Shown: piece after piece, positions 3,784-11,285 of the stretch
Layout: every line of letters begins with the position of its first letter
How positions within the stretch are numbered: position 1 is the stretch's first letter
Program-made: the position numbers and the translations under genes
Virus record (IMG/VR): IMGVR_UViG_3300035698_002268
Location: 1 to 21,447 of that record
Source of the DNA: a virus
Strand: one strand, 5' to 3'
DNA length: 21,447 nucleotides
Notes under the pieces: model-generated
Seen by the model: only the letters and a program-made list of their open reading frames with translations
Database searches by the model: none
What the model was told of the DNA's origin: nothing

Positions 3784-6366
3784 TTACGCTGTGAACTCGT
3801 ATGTCTCGGACGCGTTGATACCGTTGCGAGTGTGCATCGTCAACCGAATTGTGATCGGGTCGCCGACCGCGAATCCGTCAGTGATGATATCAGCCGCGGC
3901 GTACTGCTTGCCGAAGTACGACCGTCGCCGCAGGTCGCCCCAATCGGTGTAGTCATACCCCTCCTTGGAATAGTCCCAATACGGGTGGCTGCCGTTGACC
4001 ATTTCCTCTTGATCCATCAGCGTGCGGAGCGTCGCGCCGTCTGGACCGTCGAGGACCTCGAGCGTGAAGGTCATCCAATCGTCGCCGTCGAGCTTGATCA
4101 CCTCACGCTCACGCCCCCACCAATTCGTGTCGGGAAACAGCGTGCGCCGGGTGTAGTTCCGGGTGTACCGCCGCCATGCCAAATCGAGATTCCCCGATGC
4201 GTCCCAGCGGCTGCGACCGTCGCACGGCAAGAACGGCCGATCGCTCGGGCGGTCGCGAACGTCTTGTTGGAACGCGATATTGCTGCCGAGCTTCTCCGAT
4301 CGCTTCGCCGTTTTCCAGTGCGTCGGGTCGGGCGCCCTTGACACTTTTACCGACGTTTCGGGCTCGCCGGTCGTATTGATCCCTTCGCCGACCAGATCCG
4401 CGAACACGCACACCGTGGAGTTGACGGGCCATTCTTGCACGAACGGCTCGGTGCCCATTCGTCCTCGGAGCAGTTGCGAAATCACGAACCGGCGGTTGCC
4501 CAGGTCGACCGCATTGACGAACGCGATCAGCTCGGGGCCTCCGTTCTCGCCCATGATCAGCAAATGATTCTCGCCGCCCAGCACCGCTTCCTCGGTGGCC
4601 GTCACCAGATCCGCGTCCACGCTGTTGGACGACATATCGATCGTGAGTTCGCTGCTGTAATCCCAATAGCGATTTCTTGCCTCGGGCACGCCGGCAGGCA
4701 ACACCGTTTTGGTCAGCCCCACTCGCGAATTCGGCACGCCGTTCGCCCGCGAATCCAATTGTCTCGCTCTGTCGAAACCGCTGCTGGCGTTGTTGGCCAG
4801 CCACGCGCTCGTTCGGTTGTTCAAATCGACGTCGGGATCGGCGGGGCCCCACGCGATCATGGCGTGGTTTGTCCCTTCGTTCAAGCCGCCTTTTTCTTCG
4901 CCGTTGCTGACAGACCACCCGACCGACACGCCGAGGACGTGCGTCGAAACGGTCTGAGTGTTTTCGGGCGGCAAGCACGATCGCGGGTTGTCGATCCCGA
5001 CCTGATCGAAGATCCCCGGTTCCTCGACAACGCCGGAGAACTTGGTCAGGTAACTGGGGCCACGATCGAGCTGAATAATTCGCACGTTCTCGGTCACGTC
5101 GCCGTCGCTGACTGTCACAAGGTCGCCGGGCAGCAACGCGATATGCCGAGGGGTCAGGTGTGCCTCGATCCCGACGCGGGTGCCGTGAGCCGCAGCGAGC
5201 AATCGCATCGCGGTCGCGCTGGCTTCTTCGCCCGTCATGGTCATCGGCAACGAGGCCGAGTTTTCACCTTCGAGCGAGAACGCTTGCTTGGACGCCTTGC
5301 GTGACGCGCCCTCAAAGTTGCATTCCGGGTCGGCGTACATCACGACGGATCGTTTGGGCAATTTGTCGGGGGCCGCGTCGGTGCGTGCGAACGGCCACAT
5401 CCGGTTGCGTGCGTCGCCGGGTGAGCCCGCGCCGAGGTATTCGTCGGCGATAACGAAATCGACTGTTTCGCCGCGTTTGCGGAACGTGATCTTGCCGCGT
5501 TCTTCCCGCACGGTCAAGTCGTAGGCAATGATGAACGACTCGATCGCTGCGGCGGTCGGTTGCGGACCCGACACCGAAAACCCGCGACACACGACCGCGT
5601 CGTCGAGTTCGGACGTGTCGATATTCGCGTTCGAGATCCCGGCGCGAGTGCAGAGCCGCGTGAGCGCGACCGCCACGGTCAGGTCGCCATCCTCGGTTTC
5701 GATAATCGCCTCGAAGTTGGGCGCGCGGTTGCCGAAATCGGCGAGCTTCAAACCTTCCACGACGAAATACGCCGACCCCGTGTAGTTCGGCGTGAGCCCC
5801 ACGCCTTTTTCTGCTTCGATCTGCGCGTCGGGTGTCGTCTGATCGCCCAAATAAATTCGCAGGTCGGCCACGCGGTCGTCGAGTTCGGTGTCGTCCACAC
5901 CGTAGATTTTTTTAGTGTTGGCGAAGATCGTTTTGACGCGGTGAATTTTCTTGTTCGTGAGCGCGTCGGTGTCGCACAAGTGAATCGCCATGCTCACCGA
6001 GTAAGAAAACGTCGTCGATTTTTGGCTCGGCCCGCCCTTGCCCCCGCTCGATGACGTTTCCGACGTTTCAACGAGCGTGGTTGACCAGATCACGCCGCCG
6101 CCGACTCGCCTGCCCACGTCGACCGCGTTGCCCGCCGCCATCACGAACGTCGCGGGCGATCCTTCGCTGCCGAGCGTCACGCTCAGGTCGTCGAGCTTCG
6201 AGCCCGAGAAATCTTCCGGCCCGCCGAAGATCGCGGGGTACACCAACTGGCTATCGATCACTGATCCGGCGGCGATCGCACCCGACACGATCACGGAGGC
6301 CCAGAACCCGCCCGCCGCCCCGCCGGTCGCTGCCGTTGCCGCCGCGCCAAATGCGATCGTCGCCAT
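3784..6366 (-). CDS. Baseplate/tail-tip protein, Rcc01698-like 'megatron' without the TIM-barrel domain (GTA g15-like)
   Basis: An 860-residue protein starting at ATG 6366, which shares a base with the upstream stop. An Ala/Gly-rich hydrophobic N-terminus (1-48) is followed by the hub-type core: VMAAGNAVDVGRRVGGGVIW (75-94), SMAIHLCD (125-132) and AYFVVEGLKLADFGNRAPNF (199-218). The Phage-tail_3-type region includes ESFIIAYDLTVREERGKITF (276-295). Later, LLRGRMGTEPFVQEWPVNS and RRYTRNYTRR match the C-terminal pattern of GTA g15-like proteins ('RGr.GTE......G', 'W.RRtR'). The GTA protein is about 1,300 residues and carries a GTA_TIM glycoside-hydrolase-like domain. That domain is absent here, so this is a short form. 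It probably contacts the host surface and anchors fibres. Confidence 0.85.
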   Translation of the reverse strand: MATIAFGAAATAATGGAAGGFWASVIVSGAIAAGSVIDSQLVYPAIFGGPEDFSGSKLDDLSVTLGSEGSPATFVMAAGNAVDVGRRVGGGVIWSTTLVETSETSSSGGKGGPSQKSTTFSYSVSMAIHLCDTDALTNKKIHRVKTIFANTKKIYGVDDTELDDRVADLRIYLGDQTTPDAQIEAEKGVGLTPNYTGSAYFVVEGLKLADFGNRAPNFEAIIETEDGDLTVAVALTRLCTRAGISNANIDTSELDDAVVCRGFSVSGPQPTAAAIESFIIAYDLTVREERGKITFRKRGETVDFVIADEYLGAGSPGDARNRMWPFARTDAAPDKLPKRSVVMYADPECNFEGASRKASKQAFSLEGENSASLPMTMTGEEASATAMRLLAAAHGTRVGIEAHLTPRHIALLPGDLVTVSDGDVTENVRIIQLDRGPSYLTKFSGVVEEPGIFDQVGIDNPRSCLPPENTQTVSTHVLGVSVGWSVSNGEEKGGLNEGTNHAMIAWGPADPDVDLNNRTSAWLANNASSGFDRARQLDSRANGVPNSRVGLTKTVLPAGVPEARNRYWDYSSELTIDMSSNSVDADLVTATEEAVLGGENHLLIMGENGGPELIAFVNAVDLGNRRFVISQLLRGRMGTEPFVQEWPVNSTVCVFADLVGEGINTTGEPETSVKVSRAPDPTHWKTAKRSEKLGSNIAFQQDVRDRPSDRPFLPCDGRSRWDASGNLDLAWRRYTRNYTRRTLFPDTNWWGREREVIKLDGDDWMTFTLEVLDGPDGATLRTLMDQEEMVNGSHPYWDYSKEGYDYTDWGDLRRRSYFGKQYAAADIITDGFAVGDPITIRLTMHTRNGINASETYEFTA

Positions 6367-6812
6367 TATTCGACTCCCGGAAAATCGAACGCGTGAGTGA
6401 TTCGTTTGTCCCACTCGGGCCCCATCGTGTGTTCGCACACGCCGGGCCAACCGCTGCCGTTGTACGCGTGCAGCATACGCCGAGGCTCGATCGTTGTCAG
6501 GATCGCGCAATGCTGCGGGAGTCGAACGTCGGGGCTGCACTCGCCCTCGATCGCGAAAATCATCACCGAGCCGGGCCGGATTTCCTCGAGCCCGATCGCG
6601 ATCAGTCCCGCTTTGTGCAGGAACCCGACCAGCGTGCCGTTCGGCGCTGCCGGGTATCGCGACGGGGCCTCGTACTCGATCCCGACCTGGTCAGCGGTGC
6701 ACGTCAACACGCCGATGCAATCCAACGCGCGGCCCGGTCGTCGGCCCCACATACGGAACGGGGTCTTGTTCAGCGTCCTCGCCGCGCGCACGATTTCGTC
6801 GCGTGCGATCAC
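6366..6812 (-). CDS. NlpC/P60-type cell-wall peptidase of the tail tip (GTA g14-like)
   Basis: A 148-residue protein with a GTG start at 6812 that overlaps the hub gene stop. No suitable ATG exists in frame before the catalytic motif. The N-terminal helix IARDEIVRAARTL leads to TPFRMWGRRPGRALDCIGV. C32 is the likely nucleophile, H101 (QHCAI) the base and H115 (LHAYNG) the third residue, in the order seen in NlpC/P60 enzymes. The ending DKRITHAFDFPG matches GTA g14-like proteins ('W..RI...frfpG'). The enzyme should cut peptidoglycan peptides locally during tail penetration, and it is the only cell-wall enzyme visible here. The next gene starts in a TAATG overlap. Confidence 0.87.
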   Translation of the reverse strand: MIARDEIVRAARTLNKTPFRMWGRRPGRALDCIGVLTCTADQVGIEYEAPSRYPAAPNGTLVGFLHKAGLIAIGLEEIRPGSVMIFAIEGECSPDVRLPQHCAILTTIEPRRMLHAYNGSGWPGVCEHTMGPEWDKRITHAFDFPGVE

Positions 6813-7801
6813 GGCGTTCTCATGATCGACCCGGTGCCGGGCATATCGGGGAAGCCTCGGAACCTGCCGTAGTTGTTCGCCCACGGTCGACCGCCCGGCC
6901 CTGCGGTGCCTCGGCAATCGTCGGGGATCTTGCGGCACCCGGGCACGATCGAAAACGTCTCCCCGGCCGTGATCGCGAACGGCGATCGGTATTCGAGCGT
7001 GATCACGCCGCTGGCGTTGACAAAATCCTTCACGTCGAGCACGAGGTTTTCGTTCGGGCCACTGGTGAACGCGATCCGCCCGAGGTGATACAGCCCGTCC
7101 GCACCGCTGAGCGTCGTCGTGAACACGCGGCGGTTCTCGCTGACCGCCACGATCTCGTCGGTGACGCGGTGCGCTTCGATATTGACTCCGCATCGTTCGT
7201 CGCCCAGGTCCGCATCACAGTCCCGCGACAACGTGCGGCCGACCTTACGACCGAGCACGCCCATCAGCCCGACGATTTGCGCTTGCCACACCTCGCCGGT
7301 GAACGCCACTTCTTCGATCCGGTACACCTCGACATCGAACGCTCCCGCCCACGGGTACATCCAATCCACTGTTCGCACGGTCACGTCCGCGTCACGGTAC
7401 AAGCCCGCGCGGAGATCTTCTTTCGTGATCAGGTCGCTTGCCAGCGCGCCGCGCAGCTCGACGTTCGCCGATTCGGTGCCGCTGAGTCGTTGCGCCGCGC
7501 TCGATGATGCGTCGGCCGGGGCGTAGGTGTTCCCGTCGAAATACAGGGCCGACGAATGATCGGTGAAATACAACGTCGTGCCGTCCGAGCGTGCGATCTC
7601 CCACAACTTCGCGTATCGGAACACGTTCGTTTTTCGCGATCGGAGGGCTTCCATTCCTTCGCCCATTCGTGACGCGCTGCCGACGACGGACGGGGTGCTG
7701 ACCGCGTACAAAGCCGCGTCGTCGTCCATCACGATTGTCAGGTTGGACTCGGTGAGCAGGTTCGCCCCGTATTCATCCAACAGCACGTTGTCGGTTGCCA
7801 T
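6809..7801 (-). CDS. Tail hub protein, DUF2163 / BR0599 family with four cysteines (GTA g13-like)
   Basis: A 330-residue protein. Residues about 55-215 carry the DUF2163 pattern: KLWEIARSDGTTLYFTDHSS, then ALASDLITKEDLRAGLYRDADV, VRTVDWMYPW and WQAQIVGLMGVLGRKVG. Four cysteines follow in two pairs, C195/C204 and C289/C296. The C-terminal NNYGRFRGFPDMPG is the BR0599 signature. Homologues (GTA g13, lambda gpL) use four such cysteines to bind an iron-sulfur cluster at the tail tip, so the same is likely here. The first ~45 residues (LLDEYGANLLTESNLTI...) look like an added N-terminal segment. ATG 7801 is preferred to the TTG at 7807, which falls before the upstream stop. Its stop overlaps the next GTG start (GTGA). 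Confidence 0.87.
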   Translation of the reverse strand: MATDNVLLDEYGANLLTESNLTIVMDDDAALYAVSTPSVVGSASRMGEGMEALRSRKTNVFRYAKLWEIARSDGTTLYFTDHSSALYFDGNTYAPADASSSAAQRLSGTESANVELRGALASDLITKEDLRAGLYRDADVTVRTVDWMYPWAGAFDVEVYRIEEVAFTGEVWQAQIVGLMGVLGRKVGRTLSRDCDADLGDERCGVNIEAHRVTDEIVAVSENRRVFTTTLSGADGLYHLGRIAFTSGPNENLVLDVKDFVNASGVITLEYRSPFAITAGETFSIVPGCRKIPDDCRGTAGPGGRPWANNYGRFRGFPDMPGTGSIMRTP

Positions 7802-7803
7802 AA

Positions 7804-8433
7804 TCAAGTCGCCTGTGAAGATTCGAGCACGATCTGATCAATCAGAAGTGTGCCCGCGTCGTTGCTGAAAAACTCGAATTCGATCAACGCACGCCGCATG
7901 TCATCGGTGTGCAACGGGAATGCGAACGCGATCGAAAAATCGTTGGCCGTCGCTCCGTACCAGTTGGAACCCAACCACCCGTAAACGTATCGCGTCAGCG
8001 TCGTCGAATAGCCTGCGTCGCGCTCGGTGATTTTGGCTCGCACGAACATCGTTTTGAGAACGCCGCCGGGCGTGTATCGCAGCTCAAGCGACGCACGCAG
8101 CATCGACCCGAGCGGAAGGTTCTCGAATTCGCAGCGGTTCGACGCGACGACCCACAACGGGTTCACGCCAACGTCGATCGGCAGGTAATCAGAATTCGAT
8201 CGCGAGCCCGCGCCATCGTTGAGGATTTTCGTCCACGTCGAAGCGCTGACCGCTTGTGTCGCCGTGTTGTGATCAACCAACTCCCACCCCATCGCGTCGA
8301 GCCCGAGCGACGCACGCAGGTTGGCGAACGTGATCTTTTTCGTCGTCGCGACACCCGACGGGTCATCGACCGCTGTGAGCAGGTCAACGTCGGCGAGTTC
8401 AGTCAGGGCGGTCAGGCTTGTGATCTTCGGCAT
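7804..8433 (-). CDS. Short tail-fibre-like protein
   Basis: A 209-residue protein. The N-terminus (MPKITSLTALTELADVDLL, then AVDDPSGVATTKKITFANLRASLG, residues 1-44) is the short adaptor motif found at the start of many phage fibre and tail-spike proteins ('kis.l.~lt.l.~~D.l~~vd~~s~~tkkit~~nl'). The rest is strand-rich, with a jelly-roll-like feel (LRASLELRYTP, TLTRYVYGWLGSNWYG, DFSIAFAFPL, LIDQIVLESS), compatible with a small carbohydrate-binding or fibre head domain. The start at 8433 has GAGG six bases upstream and lies inside the end of the methyltransferase gene. The hub gene begins two bases after its stop. Being coupled to the enzyme gene, it might be the substrate or partner; that is inference. 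Confidence 0.65.
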   Translation of the reverse strand: MPKITSLTALTELADVDLLTAVDDPSGVATTKKITFANLRASLGLDAMGWELVDHNTATQAVSASTWTKILNDGAGSRSNSDYLPIDVGVNPLWVVASNRCEFENLPLGSMLRASLELRYTPGGVLKTMFVRAKITERDAGYSTTLTRYVYGWLGSNWYGATANDFSIAFAFPLHTDDMRRALIEFEFFSNDAGTLLIDQIVLESSQAT

Positions 8434-9832
8434 GGTCAACCTCGCAGACGTACATGATCGTGGCACCGACGGGGTGCGACGACACGACGAACCCCGCTTC
8501 GCGGAGCATGGGTTTCAGTTCAGCGGGCGTCCATCGCCCGTGGTCACAGATCGTTCGATCCATCGTGGACAGCATAAGCGACCCGGTACAGAGCTCGCGC
8601 AACCGGCGAAGGAATCGCATCGGGTCGCCCGGCAGGTGCTCGGCGACTTCGATGCACAAAACCATCGGCGCGGGCTCGATCGTCGGGCACTCCGGGTCGA
8701 GCAGGTCGAACGGGATCAATGTGTCGCGTGCGTCACACGGGCGACCCGCGACCTCGAGCGATTCGTCGTCCAGGTCAACGCCGACCCAATCGCCCTCCCA
8801 GCCCATCGATCGCAGCACGTCGCGGCTGAGCCCGTTGCCGCACCCCACGTCGAGCACGCGGGGATCACGCCCGGGGATCATCGAGCACGCCGCGTCGAGA
8901 ACGCGTTTGTGCCACGCCGAATAGTCGCTGTGTTCCCGGAGTTCGAGCATCTGGGCTTCTGATCGGTCCTCCCCGACGTGTGCGGCGTACCAGCCCTCCG
9001 ATCGAGTTCCCACCGGGTCAGGACGGCAAACGCCGCACAACGCGTCTGAGAGCCCCGTGCGTCGAAACGCCGTGAGGCCAGATTCGCCCTCGGTCGCGTT
9101 GATCACGTCGAGGCCCGCGTCGTCAAACACGGGGCGGAGCTCCGTGCACCGAGCATCGAGCGTCGCGAACAGCGATTGGTTGTGAGCGACGACCCGATCC
9201 GGGTGAACCTCGCCCGACGCGTACTGCGGGCCCTCGGATTCCATGTTGAAATCGGCCCCGACGACGATGATCTTCCTGAACCCGAGGTGCCACGCCAGCC
9301 GCAGCGCCGCGAAGAACACCGAGCGGATGCCCTTGTACCCGCCGGTCCGCATCCTCGCCGAGTTGCCGATCGTCGTGCCCATCGATTCGAGGAAACGGTG
9401 TGCTTGGAACCCCGTTTCGACCGGGTAGAACAGCGTGTTGGGTGATCGACCTGGCGTGCGACCGATTCGGTAGAACTCATCCGTGTCGGGGTCACGCCGT
9501 CGCAGCTTGGCGTTTTGCTGTCGCAGCGGGCACAACTTCAAGATCCCCGGATGCGCCCAGCCCACGTCAACGAACGACGACGGCTTGTCCAAACAGCACC
9601 AGAGATCGGGGCGATACACCTGCCACGAATTGTTCATGCCCATCGTCGTGATCCCGCTCGCGCGGATCGCATCGAGGTCGGTTTGCTCGAGTGACGGCCC
9701 GCCCGCGATCAAGATCAACGGCTCGCCGAGCCAATGATTTTTCATCTCGACCGGGTGCCCGTTCGCGGCGTACAACTCGAACCGATCCGGGTGCGTTCGT
9801 TGCGTGAGCTTGTTTCGATCGAGTTGTTCCAT
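8399..9832 (-). CDS. Two-domain enzyme: DUF115/MptE/GT42-like Rossmann domain fused to SAM-dependent methyltransferase
   Basis: A 477-residue protein. Residues about 35-265 contain EPLILIAGGPSL (37-48), GMNNSWQVYRPDLWCCLD (65-82), SMGTTIGNSARM (150-161) and FRKIIVVGADFNME (185-198). That pattern recalls the DUF115/6-hydroxymethylpterin diphosphokinase MptE-like and GT42 sialyltransferase-like folds seen in some phages. After a Cys-containing linker (265-325) comes a class I methyltransferase: motif I VLDVGCGNG (326-334), WVGVDLDDESLEVA (349-362) and VLCIEVAEHLPGDP (391-404). A nucleotide-sugar transferase or pyrophosphate-type reaction plus methylation of a glycan or other surface group is plausible but unproven. 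It lies inside the tail-tip operon (start in TGATG overlap; its 3' end overlaps the next gene by 35 bases). ATG 9832 is chosen by that overlap; upstream frame lacks coding character. Confidence 0.75.
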   Translation of the reverse strand: MEQLDRNKLTQRTHPDRFELYAANGHPVEMKNHWLGEPLILIAGGPSLEQTDLDAIRASGITTMGMNNSWQVYRPDLWCCLDKPSSFVDVGWAHPGILKLCPLRQQNAKLRRRDPDTDEFYRIGRTPGRSPNTLFYPVETGFQAHRFLESMGTTIGNSARMRTGGYKGIRSVFFAALRLAWHLGFRKIIVVGADFNMESEGPQYASGEVHPDRVVAHNQSLFATLDARCTELRPVFDDAGLDVINATEGESGLTAFRRTGLSDALCGVCRPDPVGTRSEGWYAAHVGEDRSEAQMLELREHSDYSAWHKRVLDAACSMIPGRDPRVLDVGCGNGLSRDVLRSMGWEGDWVGVDLDDESLEVAGRPCDARDTLIPFDLLDPECPTIEPAPMVLCIEVAEHLPGDPMRFLRRLRELCTGSLMLSTMDRTICDHGRWTPAELKPMLREAGFVVSSHPVGATIMYVCEVDHAEDHKPDRPD

Positions 9833-10299
9833 CAGGCGGTACCCCCGCTGCCTACCAACGTCGGCGACGTGATAATCCCGCCCGATCCTTGGAACCCGGT
9901 CGAGATCGAGTACGAGAACGCCGGTGTCGAGGTCGGCGTGCTCGTTGACGGGGCGACCCCGGACGTGTTCGGCACGTCGAAGGCGCCGCACTTGATAAAC
10001 CAGCCGCCGCCGGCAGTCTGATTCGTCATCGAGTACAACGAACACACGTCGCCGATCGCGACGGTGCCGACCGTGATCCCCAACTGATCTTCAACAGTGA
10101 ACGCGTGCGCCCCGTCGTTCATGAACCAGATCACCGGCCCGCCCGTGTGCGTGAACAACCGCATATCGGGCAGGATCATCGCGAGGCCCGAGGACGCCAT
10201 CGCGACACGCACCACGCGGCCGTCGGCGATCGACCAATCCCTATCCGCCGCCGGCTGGATATACGAACCGCCGCCCATGAAAACGCTTTGCCGGATCAT
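9832..10299 (-). CDS. Small beta-rich tail-tip protein of unknown function
   Basis: A 155-residue protein starting at an ATG that overlaps the DUF2460 stop by four bases; its own stop overlaps the next start (TGATG). The centre (residues about 50-105) has THTGGPVIWFMNDGAHAF, VEDQLGITVG and GGGWFIKCG segments. These resemble the C-terminal domain of the preceding protein (GGPYFVIS..., DLVDSTGTITV, PEWIAA), so the two probably share a small beta-sandwich fold. The C-terminal 45 residues are Ser/Thr/Pro/Gly-rich low complexity, like a flexible linker or stalk. A minor virion component at the tail tip or a head/tail decoration is likely from context, but no family is recognised. Confidence 0.7.
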   Translation of the reverse strand: MIRQSVFMGGGSYIQPAADRDWSIADGRVVRVAMASSGLAMILPDMRLFTHTGGPVIWFMNDGAHAFTVEDQLGITVGTVAIGDVCSLYSMTNQTAGGGWFIKCGAFDVPNTSGVAPSTSTPTSTPAFSYSISTGFQGSGGIITSPTLVGSGGTA

Positions 10300-11285
10300 G
10301 CGGCGATCCATTCCGGGTCGCCGCTCCCGTTGACGGTGAGGAACACCAGCACGACGGCACCCGCCGCGATCGCTGCGGACACCGTGATCGTGCCGGTCGA
10401 ATCGACCAGATCCACGTTGTTCGACCCGGTGATGGGCGAGATCACAAAGTACGGCCCGCCGAGGGGCAGATTCGCGTTGCCGGGCAGCTTGAGTTTCACG
10501 CCGGTCGTCGAGGCGTTCACGGCTTTGATCCGTCCAGTCGCAAGCGAGAGCGTCACGTCGATCGAGGTCGTGAACAGGTGCGCGCCGCCGAGCCAATAAT
10601 CGTCGGCGACTTCCACCTCGCCGCTGACCTCGATCGCGGTCAGCCCCGGCAACGTCGCGTTGTCGAAATCGTTCGTGATCATCTGCAGCCATTCGTCCAC
10701 CGTGTCGTCGAACCGCACGGGCACGTCGAACTCGAACCCGCAGGTGATCGCGTGCCCGCTGGTCGGTGCCGAGTTGAACGTGACGATCCCGGTGACGGTG
10801 TTCACCGAGTAATCGACCCCCTCGGTGACGCTCACGCCGTTGACTTTGACGACGACGGTCGACGCGCGCGGCTTCGTGATCGTTCGCACGATATTGGGGG
10901 CCACGCCGTCGGTGTACCGCTTGACGAGCTGATAGTCGGTTTTGGTGCCGTCGCCGGTGCCGAGATCCTGATCGGTGTCGGCGAGCGTCGCGCCGCCCTC
11001 GTCGCCCGCCGAACGCCCGAGCGTCGTCGAGTTGTAGTCGGACCAATCGCGGAGCCGAAACGAGTGCAGCGCCCCGCGTCGCAGCATCACGAAATCTTTC
11101 ATCGCGCTGAGGTCGTCGAGCGTTCGATCGGACCACATCAGATCGAACCGATGCTTGGGTGCCTCCCAGCGTGCGACGCGCTCCTCCACCCCGCTGAACG
11201 CGTCAGTGATCAGGGTCTTGAACCCCGGCCCGGCGGCAGCGCCGAAGGAGAGATCATCTGGAAAAAGAACCTCGTGTGCCGACAT
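10296..11285 (-). CDS. Distal tail protein, DUF2460 family (GTA g12-like)
   Basis: A 329-residue protein whose first ~210 residues match the DUF2460/TIGR02217 pattern. It starts HEVLFPDDLSFGAAAGPGF (4-22), followed by GVEERVARWE (32-41), DLSAMKDFVMLRRGALHSFR (58-77) and RDWSDY (79-84). Further along are the GDGTKTDYQLVKRY block, a VKVNGVSVTEGVDY segment and FDVPVRFD. In the R. capsulatus gene transfer agent the homologous g12 product forms the distal tail ring. Here it directly follows the tape measure gene (3-base gap, AGGGG upstream). The C-terminal ~60 residues (GGPYFVISPITGSNNVDLVD... to the end) form an extra beta domain that resembles part of the next gene product. The stop overlaps the next start (ATGA). 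Confidence 0.85.
   Translation of the reverse strand: MSAHEVLFPDDLSFGAAAGPGFKTLITDAFSGVEERVARWEAPKHRFDLMWSDRTLDDLSAMKDFVMLRRGALHSFRLRDWSDYNSTTLGRSAGDEGGATLADTDQDLGTGDGTKTDYQLVKRYTDGVAPNIVRTITKPRASTVVVKVNGVSVTEGVDYSVNTVTGIVTFNSAPTSGHAITCGFEFDVPVRFDDTVDEWLQMITNDFDNATLPGLTAIEVSGEVEVADDYWLGGAHLFTTSIDVTLSLATGRIKAVNASTTGVKLKLPGNANLPLGGPYFVISPITGSNNVDLVDSTGTITVSAAIAAGAVVLVFLTVNGSGDPEWIAA

Follow-up and report, generated by a model that had tools for sequence, protein, structure and literature searches.

Closest in fold to the enzyme described here is Maf, which O-glycosylates Ser and Thr residues of flagellin with nonulosonic acids and has a central domain resembling CstII (PMC11339370). Glycosylation of phage-particle proteins is documented for mycobacteriophages; glycosyltransferases encoded by Che8, Corndog and Myrna are described as decorating capsid and tail proteins (Freeman et al. 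2023, as cited in PMC12363180 and PMC12619734). Dressing of virus particles with methylated sugars is hardly known in phages. For the tail operon the reference system is RcGTA, in which g12 is the distal tail protein and g13 is the hub (PMC7296036). The locus studied lies in the window, an entire IMG/VR contig of 21,447 bases from an uncultured phage, and its enzyme is of a known kind, the phage GT42/DUF115 enzymes; what is new is an uncommon but conserved fusion to a methyltransferase, within a recurrent association of glycosyltransferase (GT) and methyltransferase genes.

The fusion gene and its tail operon

The fusion gene occupies positions 8399..9832 of the minus strand, running from an ATG at 9832 to a stop at 8399, and encodes a GT42/DUF115(Maf)-like domain followed by a class I SAM methyltransferase (477 aa); the open reading frame is as described in an earlier sequence-only reading, which had given no strand. 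That reading held the gene to be translationally coupled to virion genes on both sides. The overlaps are present as claimed: the TGA of a 155-aa ORF upstream (9832..10299, minus strand) overlaps the ATG of the fusion in TGATG, and a 209-aa ORF downstream (7804..8433, minus strand, ATG at 8433) begins 35 bases within the fusion gene. The virion identity of the two neighbours does not follow in the same way; neither matches any named family, the N-terminus of the 209-aa protein looks like tail-fibre N-termini when judged by eye, and that both are virion proteins we can only infer.

The operon runs in the order tape measure, DUF2460, 155-aa protein, fusion, 209-aa protein, DUF2163 hub, NlpC/P60, megatron-like protein and DUF2793 protein, and contains the succession of distal tail protein, hub, peptidase and megatron seen in GTA-like tail operons of the RcGTA type. 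The DUF2460/Rcc01695-type distal tail protein (10296..11285, minus strand) is matched at 5.8e-60 and the DUF2163/BR0599 baseplate hub protein, of Rcc01696 type (6809..7807, minus strand), at 2.7e-39; TIGR02217 and TIGR02218 reach 177.8 bits (cut-off 136.65) and 147.5 bits (cut-off 80.5) in this operon. The NlpC/P60 match (6366-6833) is weak and below its cut-off, and the match of the megatron-like baseplate protein (3784..6540, minus strand; Rcc01698 C-terminal and Phage-tail_3 domains) is partial, at 257 bits against a cut-off of 800. Since g12 and g13 of RcGTA are the distal tail protein and the hub, the fusion sits between two tail-tip genes, and the tail-tip setting proposed earlier is upheld. 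The "glycoside hydrolase" labels found on DUF2460 matches are annotation names inherited within the distal tail protein family, and they were not counted as evidence of glycan activity. The fusion shows no sign of recent acquisition: the GC content of its halves, 63 and 65%, is in line with the 63% of the window. A gene for a RecE-like recombination exonuclease (phrog_434; 1301-2254) follows the tail genes closely and shares their strand.

Something is carried between the DUF2460 and hub genes in 50 of 65 related tail operons. By sequence, annotation and Pfam, the inserts in this slot include fibres (Gp38-like, kelch), lysis genes and, in locus L099, a GT2 glycosyltransferase (8971-10086; 1.3e-16), which follows a protein with the same N-terminal domain as the 155-aa protein. 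No GT42-like gene was found in the slot of the related tail operons besides that of locus L053. Because the inserts are so varied and include the GT2 enzyme of L099, the slot is considered a cargo position that glycosyltransferases have entered at least twice.

Fold and active-site residues of the two halves

The C-terminal half (8429..8935, minus strand; residues about 300-467) is a class I SAM-dependent methyltransferase by both curated Pfam cut-off and motif I, VLDVGCGNG, at residues 326-334. Methyltransf_23 matches residues 320-432 at 4.9e-9 (36.6 bits, cut-off 27), Methyltransf_25 (29.8 bits, cut-off 27) and Methyltransf_11 (28.1 bits, cut-off 21.2) are also over threshold, and NCBIfam UbiG is matched at 1.4e-8, under its cut-off. 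The full AlphaFold model matches solved methyltransferases across residues 304-467 with a best Z of 9.8, much of this half having low model confidence.

The N-terminal half (8990..9832, minus strand; residues about 20-275) is GT42/DUF115-like. PF01973 (MptE-like/DUF115) is matched at 1.6e-4, under the Pfam gathering cut-off (23.9 bits for the domain alone versus 34.6), and 19 of 24 relatives match it at an E-value of 0.01 or better. PHROG 4603, "alpha-2,3-sialyltransferase", is matched over residues 160-266 at 9e-10 and by 23 of the 24 subfamily members. In profile searches of the PDB, CstII is reached at 5e-4 by a profile of 38 phage relatives and at 4e-4 by a profile of the closer subfamily, and MptE is reached weakly, at 0.04, by the wider-family profile.

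AlphaFold models were made from the window and viral homologues, the N-terminal domain being modeled first and the full protein afterwards. The top structural match is Maf (5mu5) in both, with Z of 13.4 and then 14.7 over 200 residues at 12-13% identity, and as the match spans most of the domain it places the N-terminal half in the GT42/DUF115 (Maf) superfamily fold. In the full model the next matches are MptE HPPK (8sd5, Z 10.9), CstII (about 10) and mammalian sialyltransferases (up to 9.6), with no structural family among the best; for the N-terminal domain model most unrelated folds lie at about 5 or less, and SteA and thiamine pyrophosphokinases lie at 8-10, the latter at up to 9.7. Plain Foldseek against the PDB gave nothing better than 1e-3; its top candidates, sugar epimerases, were rejected with TM-scores of about 0.2, VIA-align placing Maf, MptE and CstII higher. 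Both domain types named in the sequence-only reading are therefore confirmed, the methyltransferase by Pfam and motif I, and the GT42/DUF115 domain by PHROG 4603 and the fold match.

Residues G45-P46-S47, N67, D82, W92, R170, D194, Y204 and N218 are invariant in the 24 subfamily members. By profile alignment Y204 corresponds to Y162 and D194 to D154 of CstII, and the GPSL motif is present. The position of His188, the catalytic residue of CstII, is occupied by A223 in a column that is not conserved in the subfamily, in a comparison that is a sequence profile alignment rather than a residue-level superposition and with CstII numbering counted from that alignment. As the His188 counterpart is absent, the chemistry of the domain cannot be assumed. 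Among the same-subfamily GT42-like proteins, those of L011 (5554-6720) and L057 (6494-7765) carry Cys-rich, possibly zinc-binding N-terminal extensions.

Relatives and Ser/Thr-rich neighbours

Relatives surfaced only when alignments were used as profile queries. Scans of viral and genome contigs with the fusion as a single-protein query returned no relative, nor did tblastn of the whole fusion protein against 50,697 phage records, in which the subfamily members found at best weak and distant matches; an alignment-based scan of genome contigs, for prophages of sequenced bacteria, likewise returned none. One mixed alignment was discarded because it had wrongly placed stand-alone methyltransferases over the N-terminal domain.

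The fusion is genuine, and it is conserved. Locus L053, a different and diverged contig, holds a full-length homologue (41% identity over residues 4-464) in the same order as the window: DUF2460, 155-aa homologue, fusion, hub, NlpC and megatron. The two methyltransferase halves are 36% identical, with motif I intact in both, and the two GT domains form a fully supported pair in the tree. A second and different kind of fusion is found in L089. Here the methyltransferase joined to a GT relative is of a separate type and shares 54% identity with a free-standing methyltransferase of L081, whose gene overlaps the GT gene immediately upstream of it; to this type the methyltransferases of the window and L053 show only weak similarity. 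The methyltransferases paired with GT fall into at least two sequence groups. On the best GT-domain tree the fused state requires two changes, although a single origin is conceivable.

As separate genes the pairing is recurrent. A stand-alone methyltransferase gene overlapping the GT gene is seen across a cluster of 27 loci (represented by L075, with L081 a member) and again in L063, while the genes of a comparable pair in L058 overlap by 4 bases; in 9 of 16 non-redundant loci no methyltransferase was found within two genes of the GT gene. The architecture had been called unusual at the outset, which stands for the exact fusion, common only to the window and L053, and fails for the presence of a GT-methyltransferase pair near tail genes. 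Members of the subfamily recur in tail modules of sipho- and podovirus-like contigs, the GT gene of the latter overlapping tail genes. In Pseudomonas phages PAJU2 and IME307 and Caulobacter phage CcrBL9, a stand-alone GT lies in the structural region with a methyltransferase gene 2-4 genes on, and in a Bradyrhizobium phage-like plasmid the GT immediately precedes the tail terminator and is itself preceded, at some distance, by GT9 and methyltransferase genes. Wider relatives include mergers, L050 having GT2- and GT4-like regions and L055 a GT2-like region, with domain names read from sequence rather than from profile matches. Named in the same way, a single 976-aa phage ORF in L045 (5587-8517) has GT42-like, GT8-like and other glycosyltransferase-like regions and a methyltransferase-like C-terminus.

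The 155-aa protein directly upstream of the fusion has the highest Ser/Thr density of the 22 window proteins, with a Ser/Thr/Pro tract, TSGVAPSTSTPTSTPAFSYS, at residues 112-131, and its homologue in the same place in L053 has its own Ser-rich tract, STMSSATSAASSPASSAAST. Stronger Ser/Thr tracts lie nearby in L058, L057, L092, L093 and L085. Right after the GT42-like gene of L081, the gene at 7795-8832 encodes an extreme tract, a long Ser/Thr- and Gly-rich stalk followed by Hint-like (intein-like) sequence, and similar loci have such a gene downstream as well. Approximate gene calls were used for 16 loci made non-redundant at 70%. When each locus is represented by its highest Ser/Thr density within two genes of the GT gene, the average is 0.58, compared to 0.51 (sd 0.03) when positions are drawn at random from those loci (p = 0.008); L058 and L055 break the plus/minus two-gene rule. 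This clustering of tracts near the GT gene is suggestive only, since tail-fibre genes, including their linkers, are commonly Ser/Thr-rich. The N-terminal domain of the 155-aa protein, of about 105 residues, also opens a kelch-like fibre (3e-14) and other slot proteins of relatives (window 9832-10299, L007 7058-8308, L053 6507-6986, L099 8017-8958), and a weak match to it (E 0.001) lies at the C-terminus of the DUF2460 protein in the window; judged from these recurrences it is perhaps a fibre adaptor with interchangeable C-termini.

Proposed function and comparison with known systems

The preferred reading, held with about even confidence, is that a tail-associated Ser/Thr-rich protein receives an O-linked sugar from the enzyme, which then methylates that sugar. 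It would be a late-expressed bifunctional enzyme for virion glycosylation. Its Maf/GT42-like half would attach the sugar to Ser/Thr of the tail-associated protein, for which the Ser/Thr/Pro-rich 155-aa protein is the likeliest candidate; the analogy with Maf and CstII suggests that the sugar may be a nonulosonic acid donated by a CMP-sugar. The methyltransferase half would then methylate the transferred sugar, leaving the glycan capped or diversified to the presumed benefit of the phage. Among the window proteins scanned, none was recognised as an enzyme of sugar-nucleotide synthesis, and the donor would have to be supplied by the host or by parts of the genome that lie beyond the contig. With a Maf/GT42 fold, the role in glycan building that was first suggested is likely. 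Of the two outcomes then considered, fibre decoration is favoured by the recurrent late-tail-module position and the Ser/Thr-rich neighbours, and a change of the host surface still stands as a rival.

This main rival, considered unlikely but worth weighing, is that the fusion modifies a host surface glycan (LPS or capsule) and thereby blocks superinfection or the rebinding of released virions, its place in a late operon reflecting expression timing. GT42 enzymes such as CstII act on lipooligosaccharide, the bacterial-plasmid relatives (MptE-like proteins) adjoin acylneuraminate cytidylyltransferase genes, and glycosyltransferases of temperate phages change host serotype (PMC12619734). Against it, the gene recurs within podovirus-like tail modules, where it overlaps tail genes, and members of the subfamily lie near Ser/Thr-rich proteins.

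It is less probable still that the two halves act on different targets, for example with methylation of Lys or of the N-terminus of a tail protein, and are joined for co-delivery to one structural protein. Glycosylation and Lys methylation do co-occur on Aeromonas flagellin (PMC9290775), and the existence of at least two sequence groups of paired methyltransferases would suit such a role; however, the methyltransferase half matches generic small-molecule, UbiG-like types and no protein-methyltransferase family.

There is little likelihood that the N-terminal half is a pyrophosphokinase or nucleotide-modifying enzyme of MptE/thiamine pyrophosphokinase type rather than a glycosyltransferase. MptE HPPK is the second-best fold in the full model, thiamine pyrophosphokinases score well in the first model and the Pfam name of the family is MptE-like, but Maf lies about 4 Z units above MptE, profiles reach CstII far more readily than MptE, and GT2-, GT8- and GT4-like domains are joined to relatives or lie beside them. 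Just as doubtful is a virion structural component that keeps the enzyme fold and has no catalytic role, for although ORF010, the homologue in PAJU2, carries the annotation "structural protein" and the catalytic His of CstII has no counterpart, the active-site-like GPS, N67, D194 and Y204 are invariant across the subfamily and motif I is intact in both fusions.

Returning to virion glycosylation, a wider and more tentative proposal is that a cassette of Maf-like GT, sugar methyltransferase and Ser/Thr-rich tail protein has spread through uncultured sipho- and podovirus-like phages, and could here be condensed into one enzyme adding methylated glycans to a tail-tip protein, replacing or beside a protein receptor-binding domain. 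If true, a distinct family related to the flagellin glycosyltransferase glycosylates the tails of many uncultured phages, and the named candidate acceptor and predicted methylated sugar make the effect testable for phage adsorption, antigenicity and escape from host recognition.

Among known systems, the mycobacteriophage enzymes are likened to the fusion as phage-encoded glycosyltransferases that decorate virion proteins, and their glycans sit on capsid and tail-tube C-termini. The phage proteins of phrog_4603 (PAJU2 ORF010, CcrBL9 gp527) share the setting of a GT gene in a structural region near a methyltransferase gene, whereas they are stand-alone proteins of about 190-215 aa, without the insert of roughly 50 residues and without the fusion. 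CstI/CstII (GT42) resemble the fusion in the profile match at 4e-4, the GPSL motif and the D154/Y162 counterparts D194/Y204, and CstII differs in having His188 in place of A223 and in sharing only about 12% identity. Maf (Maf_flag10, PF01973; 5mu5) is like the N-terminal domain in fold, at 12% identity and with only its central domain matched (residues 255-519 of 632); in place of the three-domain Maf architecture the fusion has an intact methyltransferase, and where Maf is encoded in a flagellar locus and acts on an extended surface filament protein, the fusion is encoded in a phage tail operon.
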